A stretch of DNA of 64,000 nucleotides from Pseudobutyrivibrio sp. (GCA_024693775.1 JAILKL010000076.1:20681-84680), one strand, 5' to 3'; positions 1,951 to 27,709 are shown, counted from the stretch's first letter. Program-made: numbers and translations. Notes: generated by a model not told the origin, from the sequence alone.

Positions 1951-3033
1951 TTACTTCAAAAAATTCTTATCTGCGTAAACCGTTTTTAACCTATTTCTGT
2001 TTTTCTCAAAAAAATAAGTGATTAGTCTCTCGGACAAAAATCCCGGATATCTATTTTGATATGAATCATGCAAAATACCATGTTGGTCAGCAACATAAAA
2101 TAAAATCGGGAAAAGCCATTCACATAATTCATTAAAGACATCTTTCCTTGCTATAATCATATTGCATGGTGAATAAAGTGGTGTGTCATTGAAAAATTTC
2201 TTTACACTCTCATATTCATCTAGTCTATTCTTTTTCAAATACTCATACATTGTATCTAATATTTCACCAACATGTCTGACACGATAATTTGCTTCCAATG
2301 TTGGATGAACATATAGTGGCACTGGCAAAATCGCATCAATATTATTTTGCTGCATTATTCCAAGCCACTCCTTAGGCAATATAAAATGCCTTCGATAATG
2401 AGTGAGTCCAACAATTTTATCAGTAGCATTTTTCCATATCCAATAAAGCGCTGTAAGTTCGCAAAATTGAGAATTTCTATTAGAAATATTATCACCAAAA
2501 TTATCAAAATAATCTGCCTGTAGTCGTTGCTTAGTCAGGCATGTTCCCACCTGAATCAGCTTTTCCACCTCTAACATTTCATAATGTTCCGTAAGCGGTT
2601 TATCCACTGCTGAATTTGCCACAAAAATAGTAACGTCATTATGCTTTGGTTTTATATCGTCTTCATATTCAAAATCATAAATCTTAACGTATTTACGATT
2701 TAAAGAGGCAAAATATTTGCTAAGAAACTGATTTCTTAAATCCATATCAAGTTTTACATCAACGGGAATAATATGTTTCATGCCGCATTTGAGAAGTGTT
2801 TTTGTTAGATTTTCCTGATTTACACCGCGAGTGCCGATATAGACTGTGTTTTCCACATTTAGCCTGGAGTTTTCATCAATTTTGCGCACAGGTATCCCGT
2901 CAACCTCAGACGGATTGTCCTCGTCATTATTGTATAGATATGATTCGACTTGGATTTCTGGGTTGAGATACTGTAAATAGTGTGCAGTTGTTATGGCCCT
3001 GGAGTGAGCCCCTGCGATGTAGATTGTTGGCAT
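1951..3033 (-). CDS. DUF4422-type glycosyltransferase with N-terminal Rossmann-like domain
   Basis: NSQFCELTALYWIWKNATDKIVGLTHYRRHF is DUF4422-like; N-term MPTIYIAGAHSRAITTAHYL. Confidence 0.8.
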   Translation of the reverse strand: MPTIYIAGAHSRAITTAHYLQYLNPEIQVESYLYNNDEDNPSEVDGIPVRKIDENSRLNVENTVYIGTRGVNQENLTKTLLKCGMKHIIPVDVKLDMDLRNQFLSKYFASLNRKYVKIYDFEYEDDIKPKHNDVTIFVANSAVDKPLTEHYEMLEVEKLIQVGTCLTKQRLQADYFDNFGDNISNRNSQFCELTALYWIWKNATDKIVGLTHYRRHFILPKEWLGIMQQNNIDAILPVPLYVHPTLEANYRVRHVGEILDTMYEYLKKNRLDEYESVKKFFNDTPLYSPCNMIIARKDVFNELCEWLFPILFYVADQHGILHDSYQNRYPGFLSERLITYFFEKNRNRLKTVYADKNFLK

Positions 3034-3052
3034 ATGAATTATCCTTTACAAA

Positions 3053-4381
3053 TCAAATAAGTATCTTTACACATTTAGAAATATCACAAACAAAAATCTG
3101 TTCATCTGAAATACCTTGGTCTACAAGATAAGTAAAAATCTCTTCTGAATGAATTTTATTTGAAACAATATACATTGCAGATTTATATCTTTCCCTTGCT
3201 ATACTTAGAGGCAGCACTTCTTTTCCATTCAATTTGGTCCCTTGTTTCTTCAAATCACTATCTACATAAGCTTGTATTTCATAATCTTTTGAATGTAAAA
3301 AGTATTGAAGATTAGATCCGTAACTACCTGCGCCATAAACTAATATATCTTTTCCTAAAGATACTTTTTCTAGTAATTGTTTTTCATTTTCCAACTGTTT
3401 ATTTTCTATATCCTTTTCAACAGCTAGAAAATCTTCCTCAGACTTTAGTAACAACTCTAGCTTTTCTAGTTCTCCTTTGTCAAAGATTTCCATATTAATA
3501 CTGGAATCAAAACATTTCGCTAACACACTTCGCATTTCCGATACTAGGACAGGTTTAAGTTCTTTATCAATACGGTTAAATACTACATAGTTATCATAAA
3601 AGAAATCCCGACAATACTCCGACTTAATATCATTCCAATTAATCGATCTTTCTTTGAGCTTTCTATATATGTAGTCATACTCCACACATATATTCAATGC
3701 TTTCTTTGGATCTTTTACAGATGCGTAAGGATTGTCACATCTATAATGATAAAAATGGTCTTTCATAAGATAAACACTGCTCGCATTAGCAAATGATAAA
3801 AACCAAAATCCTGTGTCTTGAAATGCAGCCCCAGGCGTCTCATTATGCCTAATCTCTTTCTCACGCAAAAACGATAGCCTATAAAGACCTAGCCACTCAA
3901 ACATAATCCATTTGAAGCAACTAGGATGATTTTGAGGATTCAATACTTTTTCATAATCATCAGGATTTGCTGCCACAGTCTTAGGAAAATCATATCGAGA
4001 ATCGCCTTCTCCAAGAAAAGTACTAAAATTCGCTTTTACAAAATCAACACCTGTCTCCTCAGCCTTTTTATAAAGCTTTTCAAGCATATCCAGCTCTATA
4101 TAATCGTCAGATTCTACAATGGCATAGTAAGGTGCCTTGGCCATATCAATAGCAATATTTTTTGCATAACCAGTGCTTTTTTTTATATCATCTACCAAAA
4201 TTAGACGGCTATCTCGCTCCATGTATTTAGTTATTACTTCCCTAGTTCCATCAGTTGAATTGGCATCCACAACAATTACTTCAATTTCTGAGAGAGTCTG
4301 ATTCAAAATACTATCAAGACATTTACCAATATATGGGCCAACATTAAATGATGGTACGACCACAGTAACCTTAGGGTTCAT
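3053..4381 (-). CDS. GT2 glycosyltransferase with C-terminal Rossmann-like domain
   Basis: VTVVVPSFNVGPYIGKCLDSILNQT...ESDDYIE; C-term ILVYGAGSYGSNLQYFLHSKDYEIQAYVDSDLKKQG. Confidence 0.88.
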   Translation of the reverse strand: MNPKVTVVVPSFNVGPYIGKCLDSILNQTLSEIEVIVVDANSTDGTREVITKYMERDSRLILVDDIKKSTGYAKNIAIDMAKAPYYAIVESDDYIELDMLEKLYKKAEETGVDFVKANFSTFLGEGDSRYDFPKTVAANPDDYEKVLNPQNHPSCFKWIMFEWLGLYRLSFLREKEIRHNETPGAAFQDTGFWFLSFANASSVYLMKDHFYHYRCDNPYASVKDPKKALNICVEYDYIYRKLKERSINWNDIKSEYCRDFFYDNYVVFNRIDKELKPVLVSEMRSVLAKCFDSSINMEIFDKGELEKLELLLKSEEDFLAVEKDIENKQLENEKQLLEKVSLGKDILVYGAGSYGSNLQYFLHSKDYEIQAYVDSDLKKQGTKLNGKEVLPLSIARERYKSAMYIVSNKIHSEEIFTYLVDQGISDEQIFVCDISKCVKILI

Positions 4382-4383
4382 AT

Positions 4384-5751: not shown

Positions 5752-5755
5752 GCCT

Positions 5756-6328
5756 TTAGCATCCTTTCATGCCGGATAAAATAAACATCATCATATGATT
5801 CAACACTAAATGTATGTCCTCTACAATCTGCATATTATCTATATTTACATGAATATTATATTTTGCTATTTCCTTAAGCTTTCCCCCACTATAACCAGTA
5901 AGCGCTATAGTATCTGCCCCAATGCCATTGGCAAATTCAAAAGCTTTTAAGACATTAGTTGAATTACCACTACCCGATATACCAATAACTATATCCCCCA
6001 ATTTTAGCTTATTTCTAAGTGGCACAACAAAAATATCATCGTAGCTAATATCATTTGCAATAGCCATCATCATCGGAACATTATCGCTAAGACACTCAAT
6101 ATCGTACTTAACGGTTTGATCATAACTAATACCTTTGTTGAAATCGCACTCTAAATGTGATGCTGTAGATGCACTACCGCCATTTCCACAAATGAAAACT
6201 CGCTTCCCCTTTAGTCTCGCATTCTCCAACACATTCATAACTTCATTGATTTCATCTCCACTAAGTGAATCAAGCACTGCCTTTTCCATTTCAATGTACT
6301 GCTTAATCTGCTCTCTGTAATCTGTCAT
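5756..6328 (-). CDS. gmhA: SIS-domain sedoheptulose-7-phosphate isomerase
   Basis: VFICGNGGSASTASHLECDFNKG...GISGSGNSTNVLKAFEFA; adjacent to other heptose genes. Confidence 0.83.
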   Translation of the reverse strand: MTDYREQIKQYIEMEKAVLDSLSGDEINEVMNVLENARLKGKRVFICGNGGSASTASHLECDFNKGISYDQTVKYDIECLSDNVPMMMAIANDISYDDIFVVPLRNKLKLGDIVIGISGSGNSTNVLKAFEFANGIGADTIALTGYSGGKLKEIAKYNIHVNIDNMQIVEDIHLVLNHMMMFILSGMKGC

Positions 6329-6331
6329 ACT

Positions 6332-7645
6332 CTACACCCCTATTATCAGTTTTACTGCCTCTAAAATATCCCCTGCTGTATAATCTGCTTTTACATCATA
6401 TTTCTTATCTTTACCTGCCTCACCAGTGTGAAGTAATACCGTTTTTAAACCTGCATTTATTCCGGTCTGTACATCCATTGTAGTGTCTCCGACCATATAT
6501 GATTTACTACGGTCAATATTATATTTTTCCACCATAGCATCTATCATTCCAGTTTTTGGTTTTCTGCAATTACAAGGAATCTTATATAATGGATTCTCCT
6601 CAGGATACCCTTTATCTGGATGATGAGGGCAAAATACTATATCATCTAAATATGCACCTTCATTTCCAAGTAATGACACCATCTTTTTATGGATATATTT
6701 CACATCCTTTATTCCACATAATCCCCTTGCTACAACAGGTTGATTAGTTACAACTATAGCTAAATAACCAGATTTGTTAATAAGCTTTATTGCTTCTGCT
6801 GCTGTAGTTTCAAGCTCAAACTGCTCTTCCTTGAAAACTAAACCATTAAGTTTATTTACAGTTCCATCACGATCTAGAAAAATGCACTTTTGCTTATTTT
6901 CAAGGCACTTGGCTTCCCACACTCCTGCAGCTTGCTCCGTCACGGCATTCCTAAATCGCTCCGGTGTACCGGCATCTTTTACATACTCCGGTGTAATATA
7001 TCCAAAGATTTTTCCGCTTCCCATTAATGGTGAAAGCAAATCTTTTTCCAAGTCCGTTTTCTTTAATTCATTTATCGTATTTACGAACTTTCCACTTAAT
7101 ATATATATACCTGCATTAACACAATTATCGTACCAATAGTCGCGCTTATTATTCTTTGAATCTATTCCAGTAACTTCATCATCTGCGTCAATAATTAGTA
7201 AGTCCGAGTCATAAGGATGAGCATTTGGGTGCGCAAGTAATGTGGCCTCCGCATTATGTTCTTCATGAAAAGAAATCATGCGATTCCAATCCAAGCAAAA
7301 CATAACATCTCCAAATATTAATAGATAATCCCTATCTTTAAACTTTTGGTTGAGATAATACAAAGCTCCCGCTGATCCTAGTGGTTCTTTTTCTTCTATA
7401 TAATTAATTGAAACACCAAAGTCACCACCATCACCAAAGTACTCTTTGATTTTCTCTCCTAAATGACCAATTATAATTACAAACTCAGTAATTCCATACT
7501 TTGCTACGTTCTCAATTTGCCACTGAATCATTGGCTTTCCATTTAACAATAGCATTGGTTTTGGAATCTCATCATGGGTCAATTCCACCATTCGAGTTCC
7601 TTTTCCGCCTGCTTGAATTACTGCAACGTACTTTGAATGATTCAA
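6332..7645 (-). CDS. Fusion: sugar-1-phosphate nucleotidyltransferase (HddC-like) + D,D-heptose 1,7-bisphosphate phosphatase (GmhB-like HAD)
   Basis: N-term VIQAGGKGTRM...GKPMIQWQIENVAKYG; C-term CIFLDRDGTVN...CPHHPDKGYPEENPLYKIPCNCRKPKTGM (GmhB-type Zn motif). Confidence 0.88.
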   Translation of the reverse strand: MNHSKYVAVIQAGGKGTRMVELTHDEIPKPMLLLNGKPMIQWQIENVAKYGITEFVIIIGHLGEKIKEYFGDGGDFGVSINYIEEKEPLGSAGALYYLNQKFKDRDYLLIFGDVMFCLDWNRMISFHEEHNAEATLLAHPNAHPYDSDLLIIDADDEVTGIDSKNNKRDYWYDNCVNAGIYILSGKFVNTINELKKTDLEKDLLSPLMGSGKIFGYITPEYVKDAGTPERFRNAVTEQAAGVWEAKCLENKQKCIFLDRDGTVNKLNGLVFKEEQFELETTAAEAIKLINKSGYLAIVVTNQPVVARGLCGIKDVKYIHKKMVSLLGNEGAYLDDIVFCPHHPDKGYPEENPLYKIPCNCRKPKTGMIDAMVEKYNIDRSKSYMVGDTTMDVQTGINAGLKTVLLHTGEAGKDKKYDVKADYTAGDILEAVKLIIGV

Positions 7646-7646
7646 A

Positions 7647-8585
7647 TTATGCCTCCAAATTTTTCTTGACCGTCATCCTCACTGCTTCATCTGAATTATA
7701 TTTTGCCTGCCATCCTGCTGCATGAATCTTATCCAGGCAATAATTAAATCTAGGGACATCACCCTTCCAACCGCCTTCGCCACCGGTGTAGTTGTACTTA
7801 ACATTAGTAAGCCCCATTTCCTCACAAATAATATCGGCGATTTTTGTTACACTGGTTGCACCTTCTACGCCCACATTGTAAAGAGTCACTCCTTGAGGCA
7901 CATCCATAAATTTTATAATCGCATCTACCAAATCCTGTACGTAAATATATGGCTTAGTCTGTTTTCCATCTCCCAATATTCTTAACTGTGTTCCGTCATC
8001 CTTAAGCCTATGCATAAAGTCAAAGATTACTCCGTGTGTAAGATTTTCTCCTATTACATTTGGAAATCTAAACACTAAAACAGACAAGTCATTCATATAA
8101 GAAAATGCACTTATAAGCGCTTCGCTACCAAGCTTTGCTGCACCATAATAAGAAATAGGAGCTAAATTTGGTGTGTTCTCATCTAAAGCAACGTCTCTTT
8201 TATCGCCATATACTGCTGATGTAGAAGAGAAAAACATTTTTTTCACATTATGTTTTCTCATACATGATAAAATCTGAAATGTAGTTGAATACGTATTTGC
8301 GTATTCAACATTTGGGTTTGTAGCACTAGCTTGAATATCAGAATTTGCCGCAAGATGAAAAACATAATCTGGCTTATTATCATTAAAAGCCTTATCTATT
8401 TCTTCAAAAACAGAAGCATCACCTTTTATTACGCTAAAACCCTTTTTACTTTTTAAATCCTTTATATTGTTTTCATTTCCAAGAGAAAAGTTATCGAAAC
8501 AAACTACTTCATTCCCCATTTCAAGAAGTCGCCTGCACAAACTACTTCCTATAAAACCAGCTCCACCAATTACTAATGCCTTCAT
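7647..8585 (-). CDS. NAD-dependent epimerase/dehydratase (SDR family)
   Basis: MKALVIGGAGFIGSSLCRRL, YYGAAK catalytic motif; start moved to internal ATG after ggagaaggac. Confidence 0.87.
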   Translation of the reverse strand: MKALVIGGAGFIGSSLCRRLLEMGNEVVCFDNFSLGNENNIKDLKSKKGFSVIKGDASVFEEIDKAFNDNKPDYVFHLAANSDIQASATNPNVEYANTYSTTFQILSCMRKHNVKKMFFSSTSAVYGDKRDVALDENTPNLAPISYYGAAKLGSEALISAFSYMNDLSVLVFRFPNVIGENLTHGVIFDFMHRLKDDGTQLRILGDGKQTKPYIYVQDLVDAIIKFMDVPQGVTLYNVGVEGATSVTKIADIICEEMGLTNVKYNYTGGEGGWKGDVPRFNYCLDKIHAAGWQAKYNSDEAVRMTVKKNLEA

Positions 8586-8595
8586 GTCCTTCTCC

Positions 8596-9579
8596 TTACC
8601 AGTATTTATCACCTAAATAAACAACAGATGTTCCATCATGTTCAAATCTTACTGGGAATTTTCTTAACCCAAGAGCCTCATCGAGCTGATGCTGTTTATA
8701 TTTTTCACAATAGAATAATAAGAATCCGCCACCACCAGCGCCTAGCAACTTGCCTCCGATAGCTCCATTTTTCATTGCCAAATCATAGAGCTCATCAATT
8801 CTAGGGTTTGCTATTCCACTTGCAAGCTCTCGCTTTCTTTGCCATCCCTCATCAAGGATTTTTCCAAAGTCAGTCAGGTCATTCATTTCAAGAGAATTCT
8901 TCATGGAAAGGGCTAACTCACACATCTTTATAAGATTGTCTTTTTTTGCCTTATCAGATATATTGCTCTTTTGCTCAGCTAAAATTTTATTAGCATCATG
9001 AGTTAATCCAGTATAATAAATTACTATATTTTCCTGCAACGCTTCTAATGCTTCAGGGCTAATGATTATTGGCTCTACTGAAACTGATTCATCACGTCTA
9101 AAGGTAATAAAGTTTAAACCTCCGCAAGCTGCTGCATATTGATCCTGTTTACCGATAGGACTACCTAATCTGTTAATTTCCACATCACATGCCTCAGCTG
9201 CAAGTTTTGTTTTCTCAACATATTTGCCCTTATAGCAATACAGAGAATGTAACAATCCGACCGTAAACGCACTTGATGAGCCTAATCCAGTTCCACTAGG
9301 CACATCAGCAGTACTTGTTATTTCGACACCCGATATGTTCATATCTTTGAGTACTCGCTTAAAAATCGTATGCTGGATGTCATCCAAATTTTCAACGATC
9401 TCTGTCCTTGAGTATTTTAGGGCAGTCTTTGATTCGTCGAAATATGGATGAATCGAAATATACATATATCTATTAATTGATGTTGATAATACACATCCCC
9501 CATACTCACGATAGAAGTCAGCCATGTCGCTGCCTCCACCGCAAAAACTTACTCTAAAAGGTGTCTTAGTAATAATCAT
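8596..9579 (-). CDS. hddA: GHMP kinase, D-glycero-alpha-D-manno-heptose 7-phosphate kinase-like
   Basis: TPFRVSFCGGGSDMADFY; PSGTGLGSSSAFTVGLL; GGKLLGAGGGGFLLFYC. Confidence 0.85.
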   Translation of the reverse strand: MIITKTPFRVSFCGGGSDMADFYREYGGCVLSTSINRYMYISIHPYFDESKTALKYSRTEIVENLDDIQHTIFKRVLKDMNISGVEITSTADVPSGTGLGSSSAFTVGLLHSLYCYKGKYVEKTKLAAEACDVEINRLGSPIGKQDQYAAACGGLNFITFRRDESVSVEPIIISPEALEALQENIVIYYTGLTHDANKILAEQKSNISDKAKKDNLIKMCELALSMKNSLEMNDLTDFGKILDEGWQRKRELASGIANPRIDELYDLAMKNGAIGGKLLGAGGGGFLLFYCEKYKQHQLDEALGLRKFPVRFEHDGTSVVYLGDKYW

Positions 9580-9611
9580 TAGCTCATACCTCCCCAGGTA
9601 GTAAAAACGTT

Positions 9612-10913
9612 CTAAAAATTCTCTGCCATATTTTTAGCTTCACGTAAAACTTTATCCATGTTCCAATATTCAAAATTACCAAATCGACCATTCAAATCGA
9701 TTCCTTCGGCTTTATAAAATTCTCTAATAGTAGTCATGTTTTCTTTATGGTTTAAATCATAAATTACGTATGCATATTGATGCTTTGTGATATTTATGAA
9801 TTCAGAATCACTCTTTTCCTTTGCAAATCCAATTCGTACCATTCCATCTGCAATTCTAGATTTCAGTTCTTCCTCAGATAATTGATCCGTATAGTCGTTC
9901 TTTCTATAGGTTACCTCTACCATATATGTTGCAGAATCAGATTTGTAAGCGTCACCTAGGAAATCCATCTTAGATATTCTATGGAAAATAATATCTTTTT
10001 CAGGATTCATAAATGCGAAGTTATCTCCACTCAAATCTTCCTTCGTCTTTACAAAGGCAATAATTATAGAGTTATATTTCAAATCATCTACATGACTTTG
10101 AATATCTGCCGGAACCTTATCATATGCGGCTGTCATTGCCTGAATAGGGATAGTAGAGATTAGTCTTTCAGACACAAACTCCTGGCCTTTATCAGTAACA
10201 ACCTTAAATGTTCCATCAGTCTGTTTTTTCACACTTTTCACTGCATTATTCAAGTGAATCTGACATTTACTATTTAGTTTTCTAGCAAAACCTTTTGGTA
10301 CAGCTTCAATTCCACCTTCCTTTGGAAAATGGAAATACAACTGATGCACGTAACCCTCTACAGTTTCACCAGAGGCACTTCGCATAATCTCTTCATCAGT
10401 AGGTTGAGGTATTCGCTCTACCATCTGAGTATCCATAAATGATGGATCATACTTCCAAATTTTCTCATTATATGGACGTAAATATGTATTTGTTATTCCT
10501 TCGCCGAAAGTTTTTAAAAAGAATTGCAGCATATTCTGAGGCACATATCCTCTATATGGATTTGCCTTAAACATGCTGACACAATAATCCAAATCGTCCT
10601 TAGGCAATTTAGATAAATCATTTTCAAATGGATATTGGACCCAGCGCCCCTTATAGATAATCTGATTAGAACGTTTTAAATCATTTTTGGCATCAAGAAC
10701 AGAGAGCATAAGCTCTAGCATCTCTTTGTCTTTTGAAAATAATATATGAGGTCCTATGTCATATGTATATCCGTCTTTTCTGATACTACGACAAAGTCCT
10801 GCAATATCATCATCTTTTTCAATGATATCGATGTGCTCGATATCACTTCTATCTTGCAAAAAGTATGCAAGAGATAAACCTGATAAACCCGCTCCTAAAA
10901 TTGTTAGTTTCAT
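9612..10913 (-). CDS. FAD-dependent amine-oxidase superfamily protein (UDP-galactopyranose mutase-like)
   Basis: MKLTILGAGLSGLSLAYFLQ dinucleotide fold; YNEKIWKYDPSFMDTQMVERIPQP; internal ATG preferred. Confidence 0.75.
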   Translation of the reverse strand: MKLTILGAGLSGLSLAYFLQDRSDIEHIDIIEKDDDIAGLCRSIRKDGYTYDIGPHILFSKDKEMLELMLSVLDAKNDLKRSNQIIYKGRWVQYPFENDLSKLPKDDLDYCVSMFKANPYRGYVPQNMLQFFLKTFGEGITNTYLRPYNEKIWKYDPSFMDTQMVERIPQPTDEEIMRSASGETVEGYVHQLYFHFPKEGGIEAVPKGFARKLNSKCQIHLNNAVKSVKKQTDGTFKVVTDKGQEFVSERLISTIPIQAMTAAYDKVPADIQSHVDDLKYNSIIIAFVKTKEDLSGDNFAFMNPEKDIIFHRISKMDFLGDAYKSDSATYMVEVTYRKNDYTDQLSEEELKSRIADGMVRIGFAKEKSDSEFINITKHQYAYVIYDLNHKENMTTIREFYKAEGIDLNGRFGNFEYWNMDKVLREAKNMAENF

Positions 10914-10929
10914 GAATCCCCCCTGAATT

Positions 10930-12255
10930 CTAATCCCAGACAAATCTCCAGCTCTGAAATGTATATATGTTTTTATCCGTTATTTCGTTTTCTCTTAATT
11001 GCTTCCTTACTTCTTGAGTGTGACGTCTCATAGCTATGATATAAAAGGCGTCCTTATTAGTTCTCTTTGCATCTTTTAGCGATTTAATTTCAGTCCCATT
11101 AATGTTTAATCCCCACTTCGATTTATCATTATCAACAATACATGAAACAGCTAATCCATTCTCAAAAAGGATATCTCTTAGTACGTTTCCTTCCTCACCT
11201 GCTCCAAATATTACGAGCTTCTTTTTTGAACTAAGCTTTTTGCACAAGTTTTTTATGTTCGCATCATAACCATTTTGAGTTTTAACCATATAGTTTAAAT
11301 AATCATCCTTATCATTCAGAAGAAGCTTCATCTCTTTCTGATACTTCTTTTTAGGTTGAATTTCCGCTATTTGAGCATCGTTTTTTACGCGTGCTTTGAA
11401 GTCTTTATACAACCTCTCTGTTAAAGCTTCTCTATACTGTGCTGCTACTTTCTTTAGCGTCCAAGTACATGCAAAATATCTTCTCCGTAATATTCTTTCA
11501 TTAAACATTCGCTGTATATCAGGGAACTTTAATAACTGATTTTCTACAAAATCGTATTCGTCGCACATACAAAAAATCTTATTTGGATTATTAATAGATG
11601 AGTTCGGATTATCTTTTCTATATCTATAAAAAGACTGATGTGTAAACAATACTTTTTCTGCTAAAACATAACACTGTACAAAAAAACCGTTATCCTGAAA
11701 TGAAGCTCCTGGAGATTCCTGATGCTTTATATTGTTTTTTTGAAGAAAGCTTTTTTTATATATACCTGCCCAGTTAAACATAACGGCATCAAGAATATAC
11801 TTATCTTCTCTAGGATTAATTACCTTTTCATATTTCCAAGGGTACGGAATGAGATTGTGATGCACATATAATCTGTTTTCACCATTTCCTGAAAAAGATG
11901 CATAATCCCCCTTTACAATATCGCAGTCATTTGTTTTGGCTAATGCATACAGCTTTTCATACATATCTAATGTAACAAAATCATCTGTTTCGAGTATGCC
12001 AATATACTCCCCTGAAGCAGCTTCTATCGCTATATTATTTGCATATCCAGTACTTCCTTTATCATCATCTAAAATCTTAATTCTATGCTCTTTGGAAGCA
12101 TACTCTTGTAGAATTTCTCGAGTGCCATCAGTTGAAAATGCATCTACTACTATTATTTCTATGTCCGAAAGTGTTTGATTTACCACACTGTCCATACATT
12201 CTCTAATATATGGAGCTACATTAAATGATGGCATTATTATTGAAACTTTTGGCAT
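10930..12255 (-). CDS. GT2 glycosyltransferase with C-terminal Rossmann-like domain
   Basis: VSIIMPSFNVAPYIRECMDSVVNQT; C-term LVIFGAGEEGNVLRDILFENGLAVSCIVDNDKSKWG. Confidence 0.88.
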   Translation of the reverse strand: MPKVSIIMPSFNVAPYIRECMDSVVNQTLSDIEIIVVDAFSTDGTREILQEYASKEHRIKILDDDKGSTGYANNIAIEAASGEYIGILETDDFVTLDMYEKLYALAKTNDCDIVKGDYASFSGNGENRLYVHHNLIPYPWKYEKVINPREDKYILDAVMFNWAGIYKKSFLQKNNIKHQESPGASFQDNGFFVQCYVLAEKVLFTHQSFYRYRKDNPNSSINNPNKIFCMCDEYDFVENQLLKFPDIQRMFNERILRRRYFACTWTLKKVAAQYREALTERLYKDFKARVKNDAQIAEIQPKKKYQKEMKLLLNDKDDYLNYMVKTQNGYDANIKNLCKKLSSKKKLVIFGAGEEGNVLRDILFENGLAVSCIVDNDKSKWGLNINGTEIKSLKDAKRTNKDAFYIIAMRRHTQEVRKQLRENEITDKNIYTFQSWRFVWD

Positions 12256-12264
12256 TTTATTCCC

Positions 12265-13590
12265 TCATTGTATTTCTCTTAAAATATTGAGAACGTTTTT
12301 TTCGAAAACATTCATCCCAAAATATGTTCTATAAATACTATTTGATTTATACCCTATTTGGGCAGCTTCTTCTTTATTATTAATACACCATCTTATTTTT
12401 TCTGTTAATGCATCTACGTTTTCGGACTGAAAAACTAGCGCTGTGTCTCCATCTGTAATATAGTCAACAATACCAGCTTCAGAAGATATGATTGCTGGAA
12501 CATTATGGCTCATAGCTTCTACTACTACCATTGACAATGATTCCATTCTTGAAGCACATATCAAAACATCTGCTGTAGCTAATAATTTATCCACTTCAGC
12601 ACTACTTATTTCACCCAGCAACGTCACACATGGTATTTTTTCTAAATCTTTTTTTATTTGTGTGAAATTGTTCTCTTTTCTTCCCGCAAAAATGAATTCA
12701 CATTTTCGCTTCTCCTCTTCGTATAATTTATTAATCGCATCAACTATCAAATCATGACCTTTTAATGTGCATACTTCTCCAATCATAACAAATCTATACT
12801 TACTATTAACGGTTTCTCTTTGATAGCATAAGTCAGGAATTCCAACTGGTAATAATTTAGGATTTATATTTGGTAATCTCTTTACAAATGCCCTTTTTGC
12901 TGTATTACTAACACAAAATATAAATAGATTTCTTGTATCTATCTTCTTTAGATCCCGATCTAATACGTACCTATATCCTTCTTCACATTCATGTATCCAC
13001 CACATTACAGGTATTTCAATGTCACGATTCATTAATAAATGATATGGAACAGCTGTATTTACTATTATTAAATCAAAATCTTGTGTCCATTTTAAATCTT
13101 TTAATGATTTTATCGATAACTCAGAATCTATTATAATTGATATTCTATTTTCCCAAATCAACTCCCTAAGTAGTCCATCTCCATTCGACGCAACGGTCAC
13201 CTTATATCCATTCTTATTTAGTATTTCTATCATTCTTTCTAAAGCAATTTGCGCTCCGCTAAGTTTAAACTCATCAGATATAACAAGAACTCTTTTTTTT
13301 ACATTATTAGTTCTAGTTAATTGCGATACTTCGTAATGATATAGAATATCGTTTGCATCCACTCCTAGAGATAAGAGTTGACTTGTTATCTCATTAAATA
13401 ATCTTGTAAGTATCAGAATTTTGTCGTATTTTTTTCTTATAGCCATTTCTACCGAAAGGACGGTAAATCCATCGACAATTGATCCCTGTTTTGCTATATC
13501 GTTATCGGCTATGGCTACAATATCATCATCTGAAATATATGATTTATATCTTTTATAATATTCCCCTACACCAATTATTATTATTTTCAT
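12265..13590 (-). CDS. GT4 glycosyltransferase with N-terminal Rossmann-like domain
   Basis: N-term MKIIIIGVGEYYKRYKSYISDDDIVAIADNDIAKQG; C-term ADVLICASRMESLSMVVVEAMSHNVPAI. Confidence 0.85.
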   Translation of the reverse strand: MKIIIIGVGEYYKRYKSYISDDDIVAIADNDIAKQGSIVDGFTVLSVEMAIRKKYDKILILTRLFNEITSQLLSLGVDANDILYHYEVSQLTRTNNVKKRVLVISDEFKLSGAQIALERMIEILNKNGYKVTVASNGDGLLRELIWENRISIIIDSELSIKSLKDLKWTQDFDLIIVNTAVPYHLLMNRDIEIPVMWWIHECEEGYRYVLDRDLKKIDTRNLFIFCVSNTAKRAFVKRLPNINPKLLPVGIPDLCYQRETVNSKYRFVMIGEVCTLKGHDLIVDAINKLYEEEKRKCEFIFAGRKENNFTQIKKDLEKIPCVTLLGEISSAEVDKLLATADVLICASRMESLSMVVVEAMSHNVPAIISSEAGIVDYITDGDTALVFQSENVDALTEKIRWCINNKEEAAQIGYKSNSIYRTYFGMNVFEKNVLNILREIQ

Positions 13591-13593
13591 AGT

Positions 13594-14526: not shown

Positions 14527-14542
14527 ATCTCATCCCCTACTT

Positions 14543-15848: not shown

Positions 15849-17270
15849 TCAAATAATATCAATTACAGACAATATTTTCTTTTCAGTAATATTTCTTAAT
15901 TTGGGAGCTATTTCAGTATAATCATAAAAAATTGAAACAATAATTGCGTCCCCTTCTTTAGGAGCATCCTCTGGAGAATAAACTGGTATTTTTGCTTCTA
16001 TTTCTTTATAGCGTTTATCCATCAACGCAACGACTTCAATTCCAGCATCATTCAAAATGTCATATATTAATTGTCCAATTCCTCCGTAACCATAAATAAC
16101 AACTTTATCAATTTTTAGGCTTTTCAATTTGTATTTAATTTCTTTAGTTACTTCATTATATTCATCTATATTAATCTCATTCTCCATTCCGTATCTTTTT
16201 TTCATAAGCGCATTTAAGTATGTTTTTTTTGCACTTGTTAATGGATTGTGAAATTCAGAACATTTATGAGAAAACACTTCTTTTATAGATGGGGTCAACC
16301 AGTGACTTCCATCTGTGCATTTTCTATCTCGAAACTCCCCAAAAACAACATTTGGATTATAACTTTCATTGCAGGCTCCAGCTAAAACCTGTAAGAAAAA
16401 TCCACAAAAACAATAAGGAAACGGGCAAGCCTTTGCCATTGGTGCAAATCTAATAGGTTCTTCAGTATTTTCAAACATGTTAGTTATTTTTTTATTTCCC
16501 GGGCAAGCAAAAAATACCCCCGTAGCCATTTCTAAGCTACCTGTATATACTCCAGCATGACAAAATTCATCGTTATGTGGTAATACATAATCTGTATATT
16601 GATAATCAAATAGTGGGGATTTAAACTCATCCCATGTTTCAAAAAACTCCTCTTCAGATAAACATGTTTCAAATTTCGGAAATTCTCCCAGTTTTGTTTC
16701 AGACCTTCCAGCTAATACATGCGGAAGTGCACCAAATTCTTTCTCTGTCCATGCCTTTAATTCTTCTAATTCAGATAGCACCCCATCGTTTGATACTATT
16801 TCGATTGAAAAGGCAATACCATTCTTTTTTAATGCATTAATATTACTAGCATAGGTATTTAATAGATTCCTCCTTTTTAATTCCTGATAATGAAAAGAAG
16901 CCTTAAAAAAAAGGCGATCTCTGTATTCTTGTTTTAATCTAATAAATTTTTCAATCTCCTTAGTAACCGTACAATTGCTAATAATCGCAATATAATGCCC
17001 ATTTCTCAATAAGCCTTCACAAATTTCAAATATATCTGGACATAATAATGTTTCGCCACTTCCAGAGATATTAAACATACAAACACCACCCAATCGTTCA
17101 ACTGTAAGAGCTGATATCATATGTTCTACAGAATATTTAAATAAACTATCCCGCTTCTTTATATCTAGAATATCTTCATCACCGTGTTGCCTTATATAAC
17201 AATAATCACATCTTAAATTGCATCCTAGTGTTGGTACATTTGTATTAATGAATCTATATATGCCATTCAT
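15849..17270 (-). CDS. Radical SAM protein with C-terminal Rossmann-like domain
   Basis: CNLRCDYC (CX3CX2C), cysteine-rich auxiliary-cluster-like region, C-term VVIYGYGGIGQLIYDILNDAGIEVVALMDKRYKE; start set at internal MNGIYRF. Confidence 0.82.
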   Translation of the reverse strand: MNGIYRFINTNVPTLGCNLRCDYCYIRQHGDEDILDIKKRDSLFKYSVEHMISALTVERLGGVCMFNISGSGETLLCPDIFEICEGLLRNGHYIAIISNCTVTKEIEKFIRLKQEYRDRLFFKASFHYQELKRRNLLNTYASNINALKKNGIAFSIEIVSNDGVLSELEELKAWTEKEFGALPHVLAGRSETKLGEFPKFETCLSEEEFFETWDEFKSPLFDYQYTDYVLPHNDEFCHAGVYTGSLEMATGVFFACPGNKKITNMFENTEEPIRFAPMAKACPFPYCFCGFFLQVLAGACNESYNPNVVFGEFRDRKCTDGSHWLTPSIKEVFSHKCSEFHNPLTSAKKTYLNALMKKRYGMENEINIDEYNEVTKEIKYKLKSLKIDKVVIYGYGGIGQLIYDILNDAGIEVVALMDKRYKEIEAKIPVYSPEDAPKEGDAIIVSIFYDYTEIAPKLRNITEKKILSVIDII

Positions 17271-17287
17271 ATAATACCCCCTAATAA

Positions 17288-19318: not shown

Positions 19319-20619
19319 TATAGTAACCTCCTATAATTCTCTATTATTTCTGGTAAATACATTTCATATTTTTTATATTTAATAGCTTGCTCAACTATCC
19401 TATAATTAATAAATACTTCATATCCCATTTCCCTTAGGTTACTCATTACCTGCCCCATTATAAACCTGTTTTCAATCATGATTGCTATGGGAATCTGCTT
19501 ATCATCTAATTCGTGTGGCTTTGTATATAAGATTCCATCAACAATCTCTTGCGATTCAAATTTTAAATCCCATATTTCTTCTATACGAATGCCAAACTTC
19601 ATTAACCATTCTTTATATTCTTTCCCTCTTTCTCCATATCCATATAATATTATTCTTTTTTGCTCAGCTATCATTTCCCAATAGTTTTTTGCACGTGGAT
19701 GAAGAGTCGTATATTCACTATAATATACATCTTCATTATTTATTACTTTGTATATCTCTTGTCGAATCATATCTAACTCATCTTTCTGAGTTGGATATGC
19801 TGCCATTAAATCTGTATAATCAAGTATTAAACAATTTAAATAATCCGAGAAAAACAAAGTATACATTTCTGTATCATTGTTTTTTAACCAAAAATTCATC
19901 GCATTATTTTTTGCAAAAAATCTATCTACACGCATCATTTTCGGTTTTTGATGAAGAAGACTATCCTCTCTTTGATAATAGAAATATAACGTATCATCGA
20001 TAATTGCTATATTTTTTTCTTTTGCAGCATATATTATTCTTGGAGTAAACCAAGAGTCCTCAGCAAATCTTATATTTCCAAAACGTATTTCTTTAAACAA
20101 AGATTTATGATAAATATTACACCATACTCCAAACGGAGTATGGCCATTATCTGATTTACTAAAGACCTCAAAAAAATATTCTTTCCAACTGTATAATCGC
20201 ACTTTTTCTTTTTCAAAGGATAATCTCTTCGTGATTTCCTCTGTATTGAATACTTTTTTATATCGACACTGCGCAGTTAAACAACCTGTACTTTCCACCG
20301 TTTTTAACAATATTTCTACGTATTGAGGATGAACATAATCATCGCTATCTACAAATACTATCCACTCTCCGTTGGCAGAGTCTATCCCTTTATCCCTTGC
20401 TAATCCCAAACATTTTTCTTCTAAGAACAATACTTTTATTCTTCTATCTTTATTTTGATAGAATTTACATATATTTAGACAATCATCATCTGATTCTTGA
20501 TAAATTAGCAATATTTCTAAATCTTTGTACGTTTGATTTATCACTGATTCCAAACAGCGTGCTAAATATTTTTCTACCTTGTAAACTGGAATTATTACAC
20601 TAACTAAAGGCACAATCAT
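19318..20619 (-). CDS. GT2 glycosyltransferase with C-terminal Rossmann-like domain
   Basis: VSVIIPVYKVEKYLARCLESVINQT; C-term RIILYGYGERGKEYKEWLMKFGIRIEEIWDLKF. Confidence 0.87.
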   Translation of the reverse strand: MIVPLVSVIIPVYKVEKYLARCLESVINQTYKDLEILLIYQESDDDCLNICKFYQNKDRRIKVLFLEEKCLGLARDKGIDSANGEWIVFVDSDDYVHPQYVEILLKTVESTGCLTAQCRYKKVFNTEEITKRLSFEKEKVRLYSWKEYFFEVFSKSDNGHTPFGVWCNIYHKSLFKEIRFGNIRFAEDSWFTPRIIYAAKEKNIAIIDDTLYFYYQREDSLLHQKPKMMRVDRFFAKNNAMNFWLKNNDTEMYTLFFSDYLNCLILDYTDLMAAYPTQKDELDMIRQEIYKVINNEDVYYSEYTTLHPRAKNYWEMIAEQKRIILYGYGERGKEYKEWLMKFGIRIEEIWDLKFESQEIVDGILYTKPHELDDKQIPIAIMIENRFIMGQVMSNLREMGYEVFINYRIVEQAIKYKKYEMYLPEIIENYRRLL

Positions 20620-21887
20620 ATTCCTCTTAAATAATCTTCAACAATGAATGGTAAAAATCTTTCAAATTTTCCGTATTTTAGAGCTGTTTCAAGTTGAATG
20701 TATGATACTGTTTTACAGGTTGGACAATAGTTTCTTAAATCTTTTTCTACTTGTCTTGCTACCTTTTTATCTTGAACTGCAATAAGAAATGTGACATCTT
20801 CATCTTGCAACTTATGGGGTTGCACTATATCAAGCCCTAAGCTTCTGCCATTAATATCCCATACAGAGTAAATATCCACTTCTAATCGTTTCAACCATTT
20901 ATTGATATTTTGTCCGATATTTCCAAAACCATATTGAATTATTTTTGATGAATTACATAACAAATCCCATATTTCAGCTGCTCCAGGACGTAAGATAATC
21001 TCTCCATTACAATGTTTTTTAGCTTCAGGAAGCAGCTTTTCTATTATTATTTTTTGTTGAATCAATTTTTTTTCTGCCTGGTCATCATAAAAAACAATAT
21101 CCAAATAATCTAATAATAAACATGTATAATAATCATTAAAGAAAATATTATATAAGTCTATCTCCCCATTTTCTTTCCAATAATCCATAGTCTTTTGTTT
21201 AGCAAGGATTCTATCATATAATTTCCACCCCTTTGAATTATGTCTTAAACTATCTTCTCTTTGCCTATAACAATATAGTCTGGGTTTTTCTACCCATAAT
21301 ATTTTGTTTTCTTTTCCAGCATAAGTAACTCTCGGAGTAAACCAAGAATCTTCTGCAAATTTTATGTCACCAAATTCAGTTTTTTCTATAAGGTGTTTTG
21401 CATACAGATTTCCAGTGCACTTAAATGGTGATATTATCTCATCATCTTCAATGAATGCTTTAAAAAAATAATCATTTATCGTGTTTAAACTAACAGTCAC
21501 TTCCTCTTCTTTATCGTTTTCTTTATTTAGCGTATAAGTAAACGAAGATACTACTATATCTGTATCATATTCTTTTGCACATCCAACCAATATCTCTATG
21601 CAATTATTCGTTATCAAATCATCTGCATCTACAAATACAATCCAATCTCCTTTTGCAAATTTCACGCCACAGTCTCTGGCGCATCCTAATCCTTGTTTTA
21701 ATTCATCGACCAAAATTATATTGTTATTACTTTGGGCATAATAATCACAAATATCTCTACTTTTATCTGTCGAATTATTATTAACTAATATAATTTCTAT
21801 ATCGTTATATGTTTGTGTTAATAGCGATTCTATACAATCACCCACATATCGCTCTACATTATAAACAGGTACAATTATACTAACCAT
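20616..21887 (-). CDS. GT2 glycosyltransferase with C-terminal Rossmann-like domain (paralog of preceding gene)
   Basis: VSIIVPVYNVERYVGDCIESLLTQT; C-term KIIQYGFGNIGQNINKWLKRLEVDIYSVWDING. Confidence 0.87.
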   Translation of the reverse strand: MVSIIVPVYNVERYVGDCIESLLTQTYNDIEIILVNNNSTDKSRDICDYYAQSNNNIILVDELKQGLGCARDCGVKFAKGDWIVFVDADDLITNNCIEILVGCAKEYDTDIVVSSFTYTLNKENDKEEEVTVSLNTINDYFFKAFIEDDEIISPFKCTGNLYAKHLIEKTEFGDIKFAEDSWFTPRVTYAGKENKILWVEKPRLYCYRQREDSLRHNSKGWKLYDRILAKQKTMDYWKENGEIDLYNIFFNDYYTCLLLDYLDIVFYDDQAEKKLIQQKIIIEKLLPEAKKHCNGEIILRPGAAEIWDLLCNSSKIIQYGFGNIGQNINKWLKRLEVDIYSVWDINGRSLGLDIVQPHKLQDEDVTFLIAVQDKKVARQVEKDLRNYCPTCKTVSYIQLETALKYGKFERFLPFIVEDYLRGI

Positions 21888-23532
21888 CTACTCCACCTAT
21901 GTTATAAAGCACTTCTCTATATCCTTTTAAAAATTCTTTGTTATTAAACTTCTTCTCCACAACTTCTTTATTTTGTTTTTTCATTACCTCTAATCTATCG
22001 GCGCTCCACTTACCGTTTTCTAATAGCAACTCCAAATCAAGTGTCATTTTATTTTCATTAACCAAAATTCCATTGTTGTATGAACATAGTTCAACGTTCC
22101 CCCCTAGATTTGTTAATAACGGTACGCACTCATAAGACATTGCTTGTAAAATTGATAAGTCAAATACGCTTACTCTATGCATCATTATATAAAAATCAGC
22201 TCTTCTAAATAATTCAAAAATATTATCTTGATTGTCAAAGCGCTGCTTGTACCACACATAATCGCTCGGAACTAAATATTTATTTATGTTAGCTTCTACT
22301 TCATCATGCATTTCTCCATTTCCAACTAATATCCATTTAACTGAGCACCCAGTAATATTCTTAAAATCTTTTAAAATTTTCGGTATTCTTTCAACACCTT
22401 TGTTTTTGTATAAAAAAGTCGCTGATACAAATAGCACATCTTCTTTATTGATTTTATCCATCTCTATCACAAAATCTTTATCTGGATGTATTGTGTCCTT
22501 CTGCTCGTACCCATTATAAGCAATATGAAAATCCCTATCTTTTGCTGCAAGAAGCATTCCTTCACTAGCGGTTCTTAAGAATCCTTCTTTTGCCCCAACA
22601 GAAGGAAAAATCCAATTTTTAATGCATCTAAGTTGCTCTTCCTGCATTTGATTGTAGGAATCTACTAACTCAGGATTCTGTTTTCCCAATTCACTACTCA
22701 TTGCGCCTTGTACGTGATTTACAGCAATTACTCTTTTAAAATTTGGAAATGTATAAATAAATGCTTGTATCATATATGGATCTTGCAACAAAAATACATC
22801 GTTCTCATTCAAATCAAAAAGAACTTCCATTTTTTTTAGAAAATCACATGTTGAAAGTATAAACAAACATGTAGCAATCGCGTTTCCAGATATAACGTCG
22901 TTACAAACTATTGCATCTACAGCCATTCCGTTAAATATATTATTCTTTTGTTTATTATCTATTTTTAAATTATAATCATAGGGTATCTTTAATGTGCTAG
23001 GGCAAATTGTGAAAAAATTTTCTATTAATCCATATTGCTCATTTGCCAAATATAAATTCCTCAAGCAGGCACAAGGCCCTCCAGTTGCATCAAAATCCAC
23101 GGGAGCCGCCAAATTGAAGAATCTTATATGATTCGAATTATATTTTTGACTCGTGGTTTCTATTAATTGATTAATTGTATTATCCCATTTAGTCTCTAAT
23201 CTTATAGCGCTTTTAGCTAAAGAATATAATTGAAGAGGTTTTTTATATTCATAAAGAGAATATCCTCCTTGATATTGTGCCAATGCATATATTACCTGTT
23301 TGCATCCAAGACTAATCAACGAATCATATCCGCTTTCCAAATCATTCAATAATACTATTATTGGATTTTTATTTATTAGTTTTTTTTCAGGGGCACATAC
23401 CGGTACGCCAAAAACATATGATCCTTGCTTTTCTTCTGACATGTCAAAAATATATTCTACTGTAAATTGTTCTTTGATGATTGGAAGAAACCAAGAACAA
23501 TATGTCCCTGCTCCATAAACTGACCACTTCAT
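21880..23532 (-). CDS. GT4-type glycosyltransferase with N-terminal Rossmann-like domain
   Basis: N-term WSVYGAGTYCSWFLPIIKEQFTVEYIFDMSEEKQGSYVFGVPV; C-term VLFVSATFLYKNKGVERIPKILKDF...QAMSYECVPLLTNLGGNVEL. Confidence 0.8.
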   Translation of the reverse strand: MKWSVYGAGTYCSWFLPIIKEQFTVEYIFDMSEEKQGSYVFGVPVCAPEKKLINKNPIIVLLNDLESGYDSLISLGCKQVIYALAQYQGGYSLYEYKKPLQLYSLAKSAIRLETKWDNTINQLIETTSQKYNSNHIRFFNLAAPVDFDATGGPCACLRNLYLANEQYGLIENFFTICPSTLKIPYDYNLKIDNKQKNNIFNGMAVDAIVCNDVISGNAIATCLFILSTCDFLKKMEVLFDLNENDVFLLQDPYMIQAFIYTFPNFKRVIAVNHVQGAMSSELGKQNPELVDSYNQMQEEQLRCIKNWIFPSVGAKEGFLRTASEGMLLAAKDRDFHIAYNGYEQKDTIHPDKDFVIEMDKINKEDVLFVSATFLYKNKGVERIPKILKDFKNITGCSVKWILVGNGEMHDEVEANINKYLVPSDYVWYKQRFDNQDNIFELFRRADFYIMMHRVSVFDLSILQAMSYECVPLLTNLGGNVELCSYNNGILVNENKMTLDLELLLENGKWSADRLEVMKKQNKEVVEKKFNNKEFLKGYREVLYNIGGVDG

Positions 23533-23618
23533 GAGAATACCCCCTTTTTAATTTTTACCAATTATATAATCAAGTTTTAACGGCATTCATACTCTCGCTG
23601 TTTGTAAAATTAACTTAG

Positions 23619-24734: not shown

Positions 24735-24761
24735 ATATCTTTTCCTCCACGTAGTCTATTT

Positions 24762-25442: not shown

Positions 25443-26632
25443 TCTGTTACATCACAATTTGATGGAACCCACTTCCCCAAACTTTTCCTTTCCCTTATAG
25501 AACAATAGTCACATATATCTAATCTCTGTTGCATCCATTCATACAAGAATTCAGGATCATTTATTTCATATAAATCTAGCGATATATTTTTAGTAGATTG
25601 TTCAAACTCCTCTGTAAAATAGCCTTTGAAATTATCTTCAAGAAGTTTTACTCTTCTCATAGAAAAACAACATGCGAGCTTTCCATCTCTCATTGTTAAA
25701 CATTGATGGCCATCTTTATGAAATCGGCAAAACAACCAATCATATTTTTTTTGTTTTTTAAATGTATATGGAATCTTCCATGAATTTTTATCTTCATCTA
25801 AAGCATCGCCAATTATCTGTAAGTTTATCTGTGACTCAGACAATTTATCTATCTTTTCAACAGTTGCTTCAATATCCTTGTATTTTACTGGATAAAGAGT
25901 CCAATTAAGCGTAATGTTACACTTGCCTAGTCTTCTCCAAACATCATCCTGTTGTGTATTAAACAGTACTCCATTTGTTGAACAACTAAAAAATACTCTT
26001 GGAAAAAGATCTCTTGCATACTCTACAAACTCAACAAATTTGGGATGAAGGAACACATCTCCTCCAGTAAAATTTATGTGTTGTATGTTATCGCCGCAAA
26101 GATTTTTCAATTTCATTAAATCTTTTTTGTAATCATCAAAATTATACATTCCACTTTTTGAAAGAGGTGCAGCAACTGTACACCCATAACATTTTATTCC
26201 AGCACAAAAATCACATACTGGTACTATTATTGTGATATTCTCAACATCTCCACACCTATCTAAAACATTTTGTTTCCATACTTTATTTAGATATATTAAA
26301 TCATCCTCTAAAAATAATAACTTGGGTAGAATTTCAGAATAATAACAACTATCTATAGTTAAAAATAACTTTGTCTTACCTTTTTTATATCTTTCCTTAA
26401 ACTCTTTTAAGGTTATAGTATTATTCTCAGTTGAGTTTCGATGTATATCATCAGATACCACATGTCCATTTATTTTAACATCACATATCTGCAAATATTT
26501 ATCAAAAGCTCTTGCAATCTTACCATTCCCAAAAAGCCAAATTTCTTCCGCATTTGGAATAACTTCTTCAAAAAGCATATCTAGTTTTTCAAAATCTTTT
26601 TCCCCAATTTCATTCATATTCATGTAACTCAT
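25427..26632 (-). CDS. Radical SAM-like protein with N-terminal Rossmann-like domain
   Basis: CDFCAGIKCYGCTVAAP followed by HINFTGGDVFLHPKFVEFVEYAR; N-term IWLFGNGKIARAFDKYLQICDVKINGHV. Confidence 0.75.
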   Translation of the reverse strand: MSYMNMNEIGEKDFEKLDMLFEEVIPNAEEIWLFGNGKIARAFDKYLQICDVKINGHVVSDDIHRNSTENNTITLKEFKERYKKGKTKLFLTIDSCYYSEILPKLLFLEDDLIYLNKVWKQNVLDRCGDVENITIIVPVCDFCAGIKCYGCTVAAPLSKSGMYNFDDYKKDLMKLKNLCGDNIQHINFTGGDVFLHPKFVEFVEYARDLFPRVFFSCSTNGVLFNTQQDDVWRRLGKCNITLNWTLYPVKYKDIEATVEKIDKLSESQINLQIIGDALDEDKNSWKIPYTFKKQKKYDWLFCRFHKDGHQCLTMRDGKLACCFSMRRVKLLEDNFKGYFTEEFEQSTKNISLDLYEINDPEFLYEWMQQRLDICDYCSIRERKSLGKWVPSNCDVTEWFVE

Positions 26633-26773
26633 ATTGCCCCTCTATTCCATTAATTCACTTAAACAATAAAATAACCATTGATGGTATAGCAATCATACTG
26701 TTTTAATCTATTACCCTTTTAATTACTTATGTTTTTTACATTTTTTCGTATAATATACCTTAATTACATAACC

Positions 26774-27709
26774 TCAAGGTTTTCTCACAAGAGTAATACA
26801 ATCCATATTAGAAGCGCTCCAATCTATTACTACTTGATCTACGATTTCAAATCCATTTCGATATGCTAAATGGGCAAATATTTTTTTGCTCATAAAGCTC
26901 CTCCCACCTGGATTAGTTGTTCCTCCAAACCAATTTCTGTAATCAGAGTCATCATTTGAATGGTGAAACAGTGCATACCCCCCTTTTTTTAGTATTCTGT
27001 AAGTCTCACTAAGATAAGAATTAATATCTATTAATTCAAAATGAACCATTGCGTCATAGGTAAATAAGGAAGTGTACGCAGAGCTACCTAAATCTGATAA
27101 ATCCTTCCCATTATTACAATAATATGAAATATTATCTTTTCCGTTAAATCTTTCTTTACAGAAATTTAAATTTTGCTCAAGGATATCAACTAACATTATC
27201 TGCTTAGCTTTATCATAATAATAGGGTACATGCCTTCCTCTCCCGCACGCCAACTCTACAACCGATGTAAGATCCAATTTGCAAAAGAGTTTATAAAAGA
27301 CTGAATTTGAATTCCAAAATACATTCAGATTCTTTTCATATTCCGATTTTTCAAAATAACTATCCATTTCATGTACATGATAATATGCACAATAATCTCT
27401 ATAGATATCATTTCGGTTCATCCCTTTAGTTTCACTAAGCCATGAAAAAATATCATCGTAGTATTTTTCATTATTTTTTTCTAACACATTACTTATTTCA
27501 TCATGATTTTGTGTCCCCTTTTGAACTCCTATAACAAAATAATCATTAAGCTTTCTTGCTTCCTTATAATCGACTACTCTCTTGCCCAAAAAATTCTTTA
27601 AATCTTTTGCTCTTATATCACAGAATAAATTAACTTCACTATCAAATCCTAAATAACTTATAAATGCAAAATTTTCTTTAGCAATTTTACCTGCTCCATA
27701 AATAATCAT
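26774..27709 (-). CDS. Class I SAM methyltransferase with N-terminal Rossmann-like domain
   Basis: N-term MIIYGAGKIAKENFAFISYLGF; VVELACGRGRHVPYYYDKAKQIMLVDI; YRILKKGGYALFHH. Confidence 0.82.
   Translation of the reverse strand: MIIYGAGKIAKENFAFISYLGFDSEVNLFCDIRAKDLKNFLGKRVVDYKEARKLNDYFVIGVQKGTQNHDEISNVLEKNNEKYYDDIFSWLSETKGMNRNDIYRDYCAYYHVHEMDSYFEKSEYEKNLNVFWNSNSVFYKLFCKLDLTSVVELACGRGRHVPYYYDKAKQIMLVDILEQNLNFCKERFNGKDNISYYCNNGKDLSDLGSSAYTSLFTYDAMVHFELIDINSYLSETYRILKKGGYALFHHSNDDSDYRNWFGGTTNPGGRSFMSKKIFAHLAYRNGFEIVDQVVIDWSASNMDCITLVRKP

Follow-up and report, generated by a model that had tools for sequence, protein, structure and literature searches.

A portable Rossmann-type module on glycan assembly and tailoring enzymes of Lachnospiraceae

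In capsule and glycan loci, soluble enzymes have to work in sequence on intermediates that are bound to the membrane. Several described domains resemble the small module treated here, which is fused to many such enzymes. The N-terminal domain of VioB, PglD and Pcryo_0637 (PglD_N, PF17836) has the same fold, the same motif (GAGxxG and DN...K.G...IPV) and an Asp that ends strand 2. PglD_N systems are fused to a left-handed beta-helix acetyltransferase and bind the NDP-sugar substrate, whereas the module is found on about 25 other enzyme families. A Pfam search showed no hexapeptide transferase domain in any module protein of the window, i.e. the 64,000-nucleotide stretch of Pseudobutyrivibrio sp. 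DNA that was analysed (GCA_024693775.1 JAILKL010000076.1:20681-84680).

The PF13727 (CoA_binding_3) domain of WbaP-type PGTs and of PglF/WbpM-type dehydratases (3nkl, 8t53) is homologous to the module in sequence and fold, and it is likewise an accessory domain in glycan enzymes. The 3nkl structure is the N-domain of a UDP-quinovosamine (UDP-QuiNAc) 4-dehydrogenase. However, the PF13727 domain is larger, is known on two enzyme classes only and sits after a four-helix membrane bundle that the window modules lack; the beta-hairpin of WbaP has no counterpart among the secondary-structure elements of the modelled module. PF13727 was not reported for the window module proteins in the Pfam search, and no membrane segments were found in them.

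The C-terminal domain of C-methyltransferases (PF08484) shares an 'hhD.n..K.G' pattern with the module, but the module covers only part of this 160-position family and its partners here are not C-methyltransferases. Those in the window are GT2, GT4, radical SAM, TylF, DUF4422 and class I methyltransferase proteins, and the combination of a C-methyltransferase-type zinc-binding N-domain with a SAM methyltransferase is not among them. Two further solved proteins, FkbM 2py6 (E-value = 0.0024) and 2g6t of Clostridium acetobutylicum (E-value = 3.4e-7), have a matching N-terminal module, and FkbM is also a module partner. These are isolated structures, and we know of no locus-wide use of their N-terminal domains. 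The NAD(H)-binding domain of Rex matches in sequence (E-value = 1e-9) and in fold and also has an Asp ending strand 2, yet Rex is a repressor that binds DNA and its C-terminal domain is larger, whereas the partners of the module are enzymes. Thus the kind of domain is already known. What appears to be new is its saturation of glycan loci across about 25 families; in the open-access literature searched we found no paper on such saturation or multiple fusion.

Twelve modules in one Pseudobutyrivibrio locus

The source genome is 2.34 Mb in size and 82%-complete. All twelve ORFs that an earlier note had listed as carriers of the module are present at the coordinates given there, on the minus strand, together with the peptides quoted from them (Table 1). 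The same note spoke of about a dozen unrelated enzymes; this holds for the number of proteins (12) but overstates their variety, as there are only about 6 enzyme families in the window and five of the proteins are GT2s. In Module 1 the second Gly and the Asp of the motif are degenerate.

Table 1. Position, host protein and detection of the window modules, and the bare precursor genes of the same locus
Feature	Position (strand)	Placement and host	Detection (E-values)
Module 1	2767..3027 (-)	N-terminal, DUF4422 protein (ORF 1951-3033)	leave-out 2.3e-5; full HMM 4.5e-10; partner PF14393 3.5e-46
Module 2	3092..3352 (-)	C-terminal, GT2 (ORF 3053-4381)	jackknife 1.5e-12; leave-out 9.1e-17
Module 3	10963..11223 (-)	C-terminal, GT2 (ORF 10930-12255)	jackknife 2.1e-13; leave-out 1.7e-20; above Pfam PF08484 cut-off; AlphaFold
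Module 4	13342..13590 (-)	N-terminal, GT4 (ORF 12265-13590)	jackknife 9.8e-10; leave-out 7.2e-16
Module 5	14218..14469 (-)	N-terminal, degenerate, TylF-type methyltransferase (ORF 13594-14526)	leave-out 2.1e-5; jackknife not significant
Module 6	14573..14830 (-)	C-terminal, GT2 (ORF 14543-15817)	jackknife 1.9e-8; leave-out 9.9e-14
Module 7	15870..16109 (-)	C-terminal, radical SAM protein (ORF 15849-17306)	leave-out 1.2e-14; above Pfam PglD_N cut-off
Module 8	19408..19659 (-)	C-terminal, GT2 (ORF 19318-20619)	jackknife 1.3e-6; leave-out 4e-8
Module 9	20706..20948 (-)	C-terminal, GT2 (ORF 20616-21887)	jackknife 7.3e-6; leave-out 4.3e-8
Module 10	23287..23529 (-)	N-terminal, GT4-like protein (ORF 21880-23532)	jackknife 0.013; leave-out 3.3e-11
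Module 11	26306..26548 (-)	N-terminal, radical SAM protein (ORF 25427-26632)	leave-out 2.5e-5; jackknife 0.05
Module 12	27455..27709 (-)	N-terminal, class I methyltransferase (ORF 26774-27709)	jackknife 3.2e-6; leave-out 4.5e-9
Module-free precursor genes within locus	5756..10943 (-)	SIS isomerase (GmhA-like), nucleotidyltransferase+HAD (HddC/GmhB-like), epimerase, GHMP kinase (HddA-like), amine oxidase/mutase-like	no module by leave-out HMM

The twelve modules form one homologous family. A leave-out HMM was built from 173 modules of other genomes, with the window proteins and the relatives of DUF4422, TylF and rSAM-b excluded, and it matches all twelve (E-values 1.7e-20 to 2.5e-5). The best non-module protein of the window under this HMM is an alcohol dehydrogenase with a true Rossmann domain (E-value = 0.09); the genuine Rossmann enzymes encoded there, epimerase 7647, dehydrogenase 31156 and amine oxidase 9612, fall outside the module family. 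In a window-only jackknife, in which an HMM from 11 modules was tested on the remaining one with 3600 shuffled proteins as background, 8 modules are recovered at E < 1e-4, Modules 1 (0.025) and 10 (0.013) are marginal, and Modules 5 and 11 (0.05) are not significant. With relatives added to the profile all 12 are detected, and an iterative HMM search of 461 proteins from 40 fetched loci plus the window converges at about 200 proteins. GxGxxG motifs are widespread, and the four modules that are weak within the window alone might be taken for unrelated domains that look Rossmann-like by chance or convergence. The leave-out HMM refutes this, as it gets all twelve and no true Rossmann enzyme of the window, and the iterative search converges; we consider such an origin hardly credible.

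The module is a separable domain of about 85–90 aa. When excised, it gives a predicted small Rossmann fold (AlphaFold pLDDT 93), and in a model of a full-length GT2 (pLDDT 91) it is a distinct C-terminal domain beyond a long helical segment. Profile matches among solved proteins are to 3nkl (2e-10), Rex (1e-9) and VioB, with weaker ones to WbaP and FkbM 2py6, and Foldseek gives VioB (with dTDP-sugar) as the closest fold match, with further matches to 2g6t, 3nkl, Rex and WbaP. Module 7 scores 28.0 bits against PglD_N (gathering cut-off 23.4 bits; Modules 2 and 3 score 17.4 and 19.5, and the rest gave no reported match), and Module 3 scores 27.9 bits against PF08484 (cut-off 23.5 bits; Modules 2 and 6 score 20.9 and 13.7). 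The resemblance to these two families that the earlier note pointed to is supported. Judged from sequence and predicted structure, the module is placed as a compact autonomous Rossmann domain in the PglD_N / PF13727 / PF08484 / Rex group, a family that existing models capture only in part.

Portability, partner enzymes and distribution

Solved GT2 relatives align to residues 1–247 only of the full-length GT2. The genome of the window has 21 GT2 domains, and the five that bear a module all lie in the window locus. In five further genomes the module-bearing GT2s all fall within a single cluster or a pair of clusters, each spanning no more than about 20 kb, and over the six genomes roughly 130 GT2 domains outside the clusters have no module. 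Since the modules themselves define the clusters, the Fisher test of this pattern is descriptive. Module-free homologues exist in the same set of loci for 16 partner clusters, which include GT2, rSAM-b, TylF and DUF4422. These homologues and the solved-GT2 coverage rule out that the module is an intrinsic part of the catalytic fold.

In the 40 fetched loci single modules are N-terminal in 81 cases and C-terminal in 82, and there are internal, tandem and solo forms as well; the partners fall into about 65 sequence clusters, of which many have a single member. With unrelated partners, placement at both termini and module-free partner homologues, the module behaves as a portable (promiscuous) domain. 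The view that one family, rather than several unrelated ones, had spread over different folds and both ends of proteins without being inherent in its hosts thus stands, by HMM and by structure comparison.

The search of other genomes for fusions, which had been proposed as a check, gives about 25 Pfam partner families at either terminus and a clustering of the modules in loci of Lachnospiraceae. The partners include GT2, GT4, GT8, GT9, WbsX, RgpF, Gly_transf_sug, Caps_synth, TagF-type and LicD. Others are cytidylyltransferase-like proteins, FkbM and other methyltransferases, TylF, radical SAM (also with a B12 domain), DUF4422, DUF1919, pyruvyltransferase, MptE-like and xylose-isomerase-like proteins.

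The choice of partners is not even. Radical SAM proteins make up 13 of 107 module proteins vs. at most 2 of 127 module-free neighbours, while epimerases account for at most 1 of the 107 and 10 of the 127. SIS, PfkB, GHMP and NTP_transferase families are found in neighbours only, among the matches listed. In the window the SIS, nucleotidyltransferase, epimerase and GHMP-kinase genes (5756–9579), named from their sequence and the Pfam families of the neighbour tally, are bare of the module. The module therefore marks assembly and tailoring enzymes, transferases included, and is hardly ever found on the enzymes of these loci that make sugar nucleotides. The bias toward assembly over precursor enzymes suggests a common 'tag' that organises or regulates the whole glycan assembly line. 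The cytidylyltransferase-like partners are an exception to this bias.

About 52 of 298 Lachnospiraceae genomes (17%) carry six or more modules, and several carry at least 17. Apart from this tail, the family shows a low background of 1–3 matches per genome, which include Rex-sized and WbaP/dehydratase-sized proteins. Genomes of the same genus mostly have 3–11 modules, located in glycan loci, and other sampled genera have 0–4. Strong matches are rarer in the wider phylum (20 of 249 at E <= 1e-12). With one window GT2 as query, the named relatives are mostly from Lachnospiraceae and other Clostridia. In Dorea sp. 5-2 the module is present on 11 of 12 consecutive genes, and the exception is an epimerase.

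Among 189 modules of the genus, the nearest relative is on the same partner family in 109 cases (20 when shuffled) and in the same genome in 12 (8 when shuffled). Because module similarity tracks the partner family, the fusions are old and have been passed on together with their enzyme. A private docking code that co-evolves would be expected to make the modules of a locus alike, which is not seen; similarity follows the partner, not the genome. By this comparison of sequences, the absence of locus-specific matching weighs against a highly specific pairwise docking code.

Ligand site, solo modules and proposed role

Over 201 modules the most conserved columns by relative entropy are G7 (93%), G9 (91%) and D31 (80%), and no other polar position comes near them. 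Both glycines and the acid are retained in 139 of the 201. The module thus has the general nucleotide-binding signature of Rossmann domains, a GxGxxG loop after strand 1 and an acidic residue ending strand 2. The motif is lost in a minority: Modules 1 and 5 lack it, and modules on RgpF and TagF-type partners lack D31. D31 aligns with the Asp of 'FLDN' in VioB and, by motif and not by superposition, with Asp35 of PglD. In Pcryo_0637, Asp40 (PglD Asp35) contacts the ribose and Asp41 (PglD Asp36) the uracil (PMC8040287). The base-contact position of the module, column 32, is N, S or K and is not conserved, and VioB, a dTDP-sugar enzyme, likewise has Asp-Asn. Since the ribose position is kept and the base position is N/S/K, the module probably binds a nucleotide, with no implied preference for uracil. 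The solved close relatives with known ligands hold a nucleotide at the equivalent site.

One use of such a site would be a handle of the PglD/VioB kind, by which the module would grip the NDP moiety of a nucleotide-sugar, or of another nucleotide-bearing intermediate, and offer it to the active site of the fused enzyme. The homologous N-domain of Pcryo_0637/PglD is a UDP-binding platform (PMC8040287) and the closest Foldseek match is VioB with its dTDP-sugar. However, GT2 and GT4 catalytic folds already bind the donor, most GT2s of the same genomes have no module, and placement at either end, with a long preceding helical segment, does not suggest a fixed active-site geometry. We therefore think a handle improbable.

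The module also occurs in solo forms. Module-only ORFs of 85–88 aa are found in three loci (L080, L055 and L047), and an anchored solo form consists of an N-terminal hydrophobic stretch, a linker of about 40 aa and the module. Among the fused module proteins checked, membrane segments are confined to two dehydratase-type proteins; otherwise they occur in the solo forms. The hydrophobicity of the anchor is modest in several, and a few are without the stretch. Of 150 family genomes, 9 have solo-ORF relatives of the anchored module at 5987-6469 in the locus of Lachnospiraceae HAN048 (L086), and in eight of these the module count is six or more. No anchored solo module was found in the genome of the window, and most module-rich genomes are also without one, so an obligatory membrane hub is unsupported. 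Solo modules favour a binding or docking role because there is no enzyme present to regulate.

A scaffold in which homotypic Rossmann-Rossmann contacts join the assembly line without a functional ligand would agree with the saturation of loci, the use of both termini and the anchored solos of module-rich genomes. The PF13727 domain makes most of the inter-chain (dimer) contacts of WbaP (PMC10942596) and is modelled as a regulated dimer interface in EpsZ (PMC12802240). Yet the ligand-site columns lead in conservation with other polar positions far behind, and modules of one locus are no more alike than others. Such a scaffold seems unlikely. Of the docking, scaffold or nucleotide-sensing functions which the earlier note put forward, an organising role fits the enrichment on enzymes of assembly and tailoring, the restriction of modules to one or two clusters in each genome and the anchored solos. 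The ligand-free scaffold is the least supported part, because the nucleotide site is best conserved, solved relatives bind nucleotide there and similarity follows the partner, not the locus.

The module may also be a pure feedback sensor, with allosteric sensing of a nucleotide (UMP/UDP/NAD-type) throttling each enzyme separately and no docking. The WbaP PF13727 domain is stabilised by binding of UMP, UDP or UTP, and UMP inhibits the enzyme (IC50 4.1 uM) (PMC10942596). Rex, a top structural match, is an NADH sensor, and the best-conserved residues of the module are those of the nucleotide site. But feedback would be expected at committed precursor steps, and the precursor enzymes of these loci have no module; among the partners, radical SAM proteins and methyltransferases release no UMP; one common base is unlikely with a variable column 32; and anchored solo modules have no catalytic domain to control. 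A pure sensor is possible, though we doubt it.

The reading we prefer, with about an even chance of being right, is that the module is a ligand-responsive docking or regulatory domain for membrane-side glycan assembly and not a catalytic part. Its ligand would be of the nucleotide type, be it a nucleotide, a nucleotide-sugar or a dinucleotide, and the ligand-bound Rossmann core would hold or regulate the fused enzyme at the membrane assembly site, perhaps by contacting other modules and also, in genomes that have one, a membrane-anchored solo module. WbaP offers the working precedent for a domain with both a ligand and an interaction surface. Beside the observed homology, separability from catalysis, enzyme bias, locus saturation, ligand-site conservation and anchored solo copies, we infer ligand binding, docking and membrane recruitment of the module enzymes. 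A tentative extension is a complex that anchored solo modules would seed and to which interchangeable nucleotide-gated tags would bring GTs, radical SAM enzymes, methyltransferases and phosphotransferases; a glycan pathway would then be put together by the tagging of its enzymes. Such a membrane-nucleated, tagged assembly line would be loosely like the docking domains of polyketide synthases or cellulosomes.

A single tag domain on most assembly enzymes would make the bringing-together of the enzymes of a locus directly testable, and it would build on the WbaP work, which suggested that domains of this kind control the flux through entire glycan pathways. The module also annotates many 'hypothetical' extensions in gut Lachnospiraceae and is a marker for glycan-assembly and tailoring genes without an assigned function (DUF4422, DUF1919, radical SAM). 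Module 7 shares a subfamily with the membrane-anchored solo modules of relatives (E-value = 3.1e-9 to an anchored solo module). The locus of Lachnospiraceae HAN048 looks orthologous to that of the window.

Module-bearing proteins of other architectures

Small proteins of ~155–170 aa display an N-terminal hydrophobic segment, frequently glycine-rich, followed by a linker and a single module. These are candidate membrane hubs. Large proteins (~770–800 aa), in which the module is internal and the C-terminal domain is cytidylyltransferase-like, are repeatedly present in module-rich loci; their N-terminal part is mostly without annotation.

Features with coordinates (L, fetched loci of relatives or neighbouring DNA)
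Feature	Locus	Positions
Small, hydrophobic segment + module	L086 (Lachnospiraceae HAN048)	5987-6469
Same	L047	9564-10049
Same	L065	13539-14045
Same	L097, L099-L102, L104, L105, L115	
Large, internal module + cytidylyltransferase-like	L089 (Dorea sp. 5-2)	12494-14794
Same	L046	2887-5271
GT2-polysaccharide pyruvyl transferase (PF04230) fusion	window	17288-19318
Truncated GT2	window	27850-28140
Alcohol dehydrogenase, C-terminal fragment	window	28805-29185
HipA-like/HTH pair	window	29256-30817
Alcohol dehydrogenase, intact	window	31156-32256

Genes without the module

The GT2-PF04230 fusion carries no module and lies within the module-rich stretch. Isomerase, guanylyltransferase plus phosphatase, epimerase and kinase genes at window 5756-9579, a set resembling that for GDP-heptose synthesis, all lack the module. 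Adjoining genes in L085 (G000:C33:1-20000, same contig) look like a nonulosonic-acid pathway of the legionaminic/pseudaminic type, and the GT2s among them are module-free.

A possible scar

The alcohol dehydrogenase fragment is similar to the intact copy; the HipA-like/HTH pair lies between them and the truncated GT2 adjoins this region. The 28805-32256 arrangement is possibly a duplication or insertion scar.
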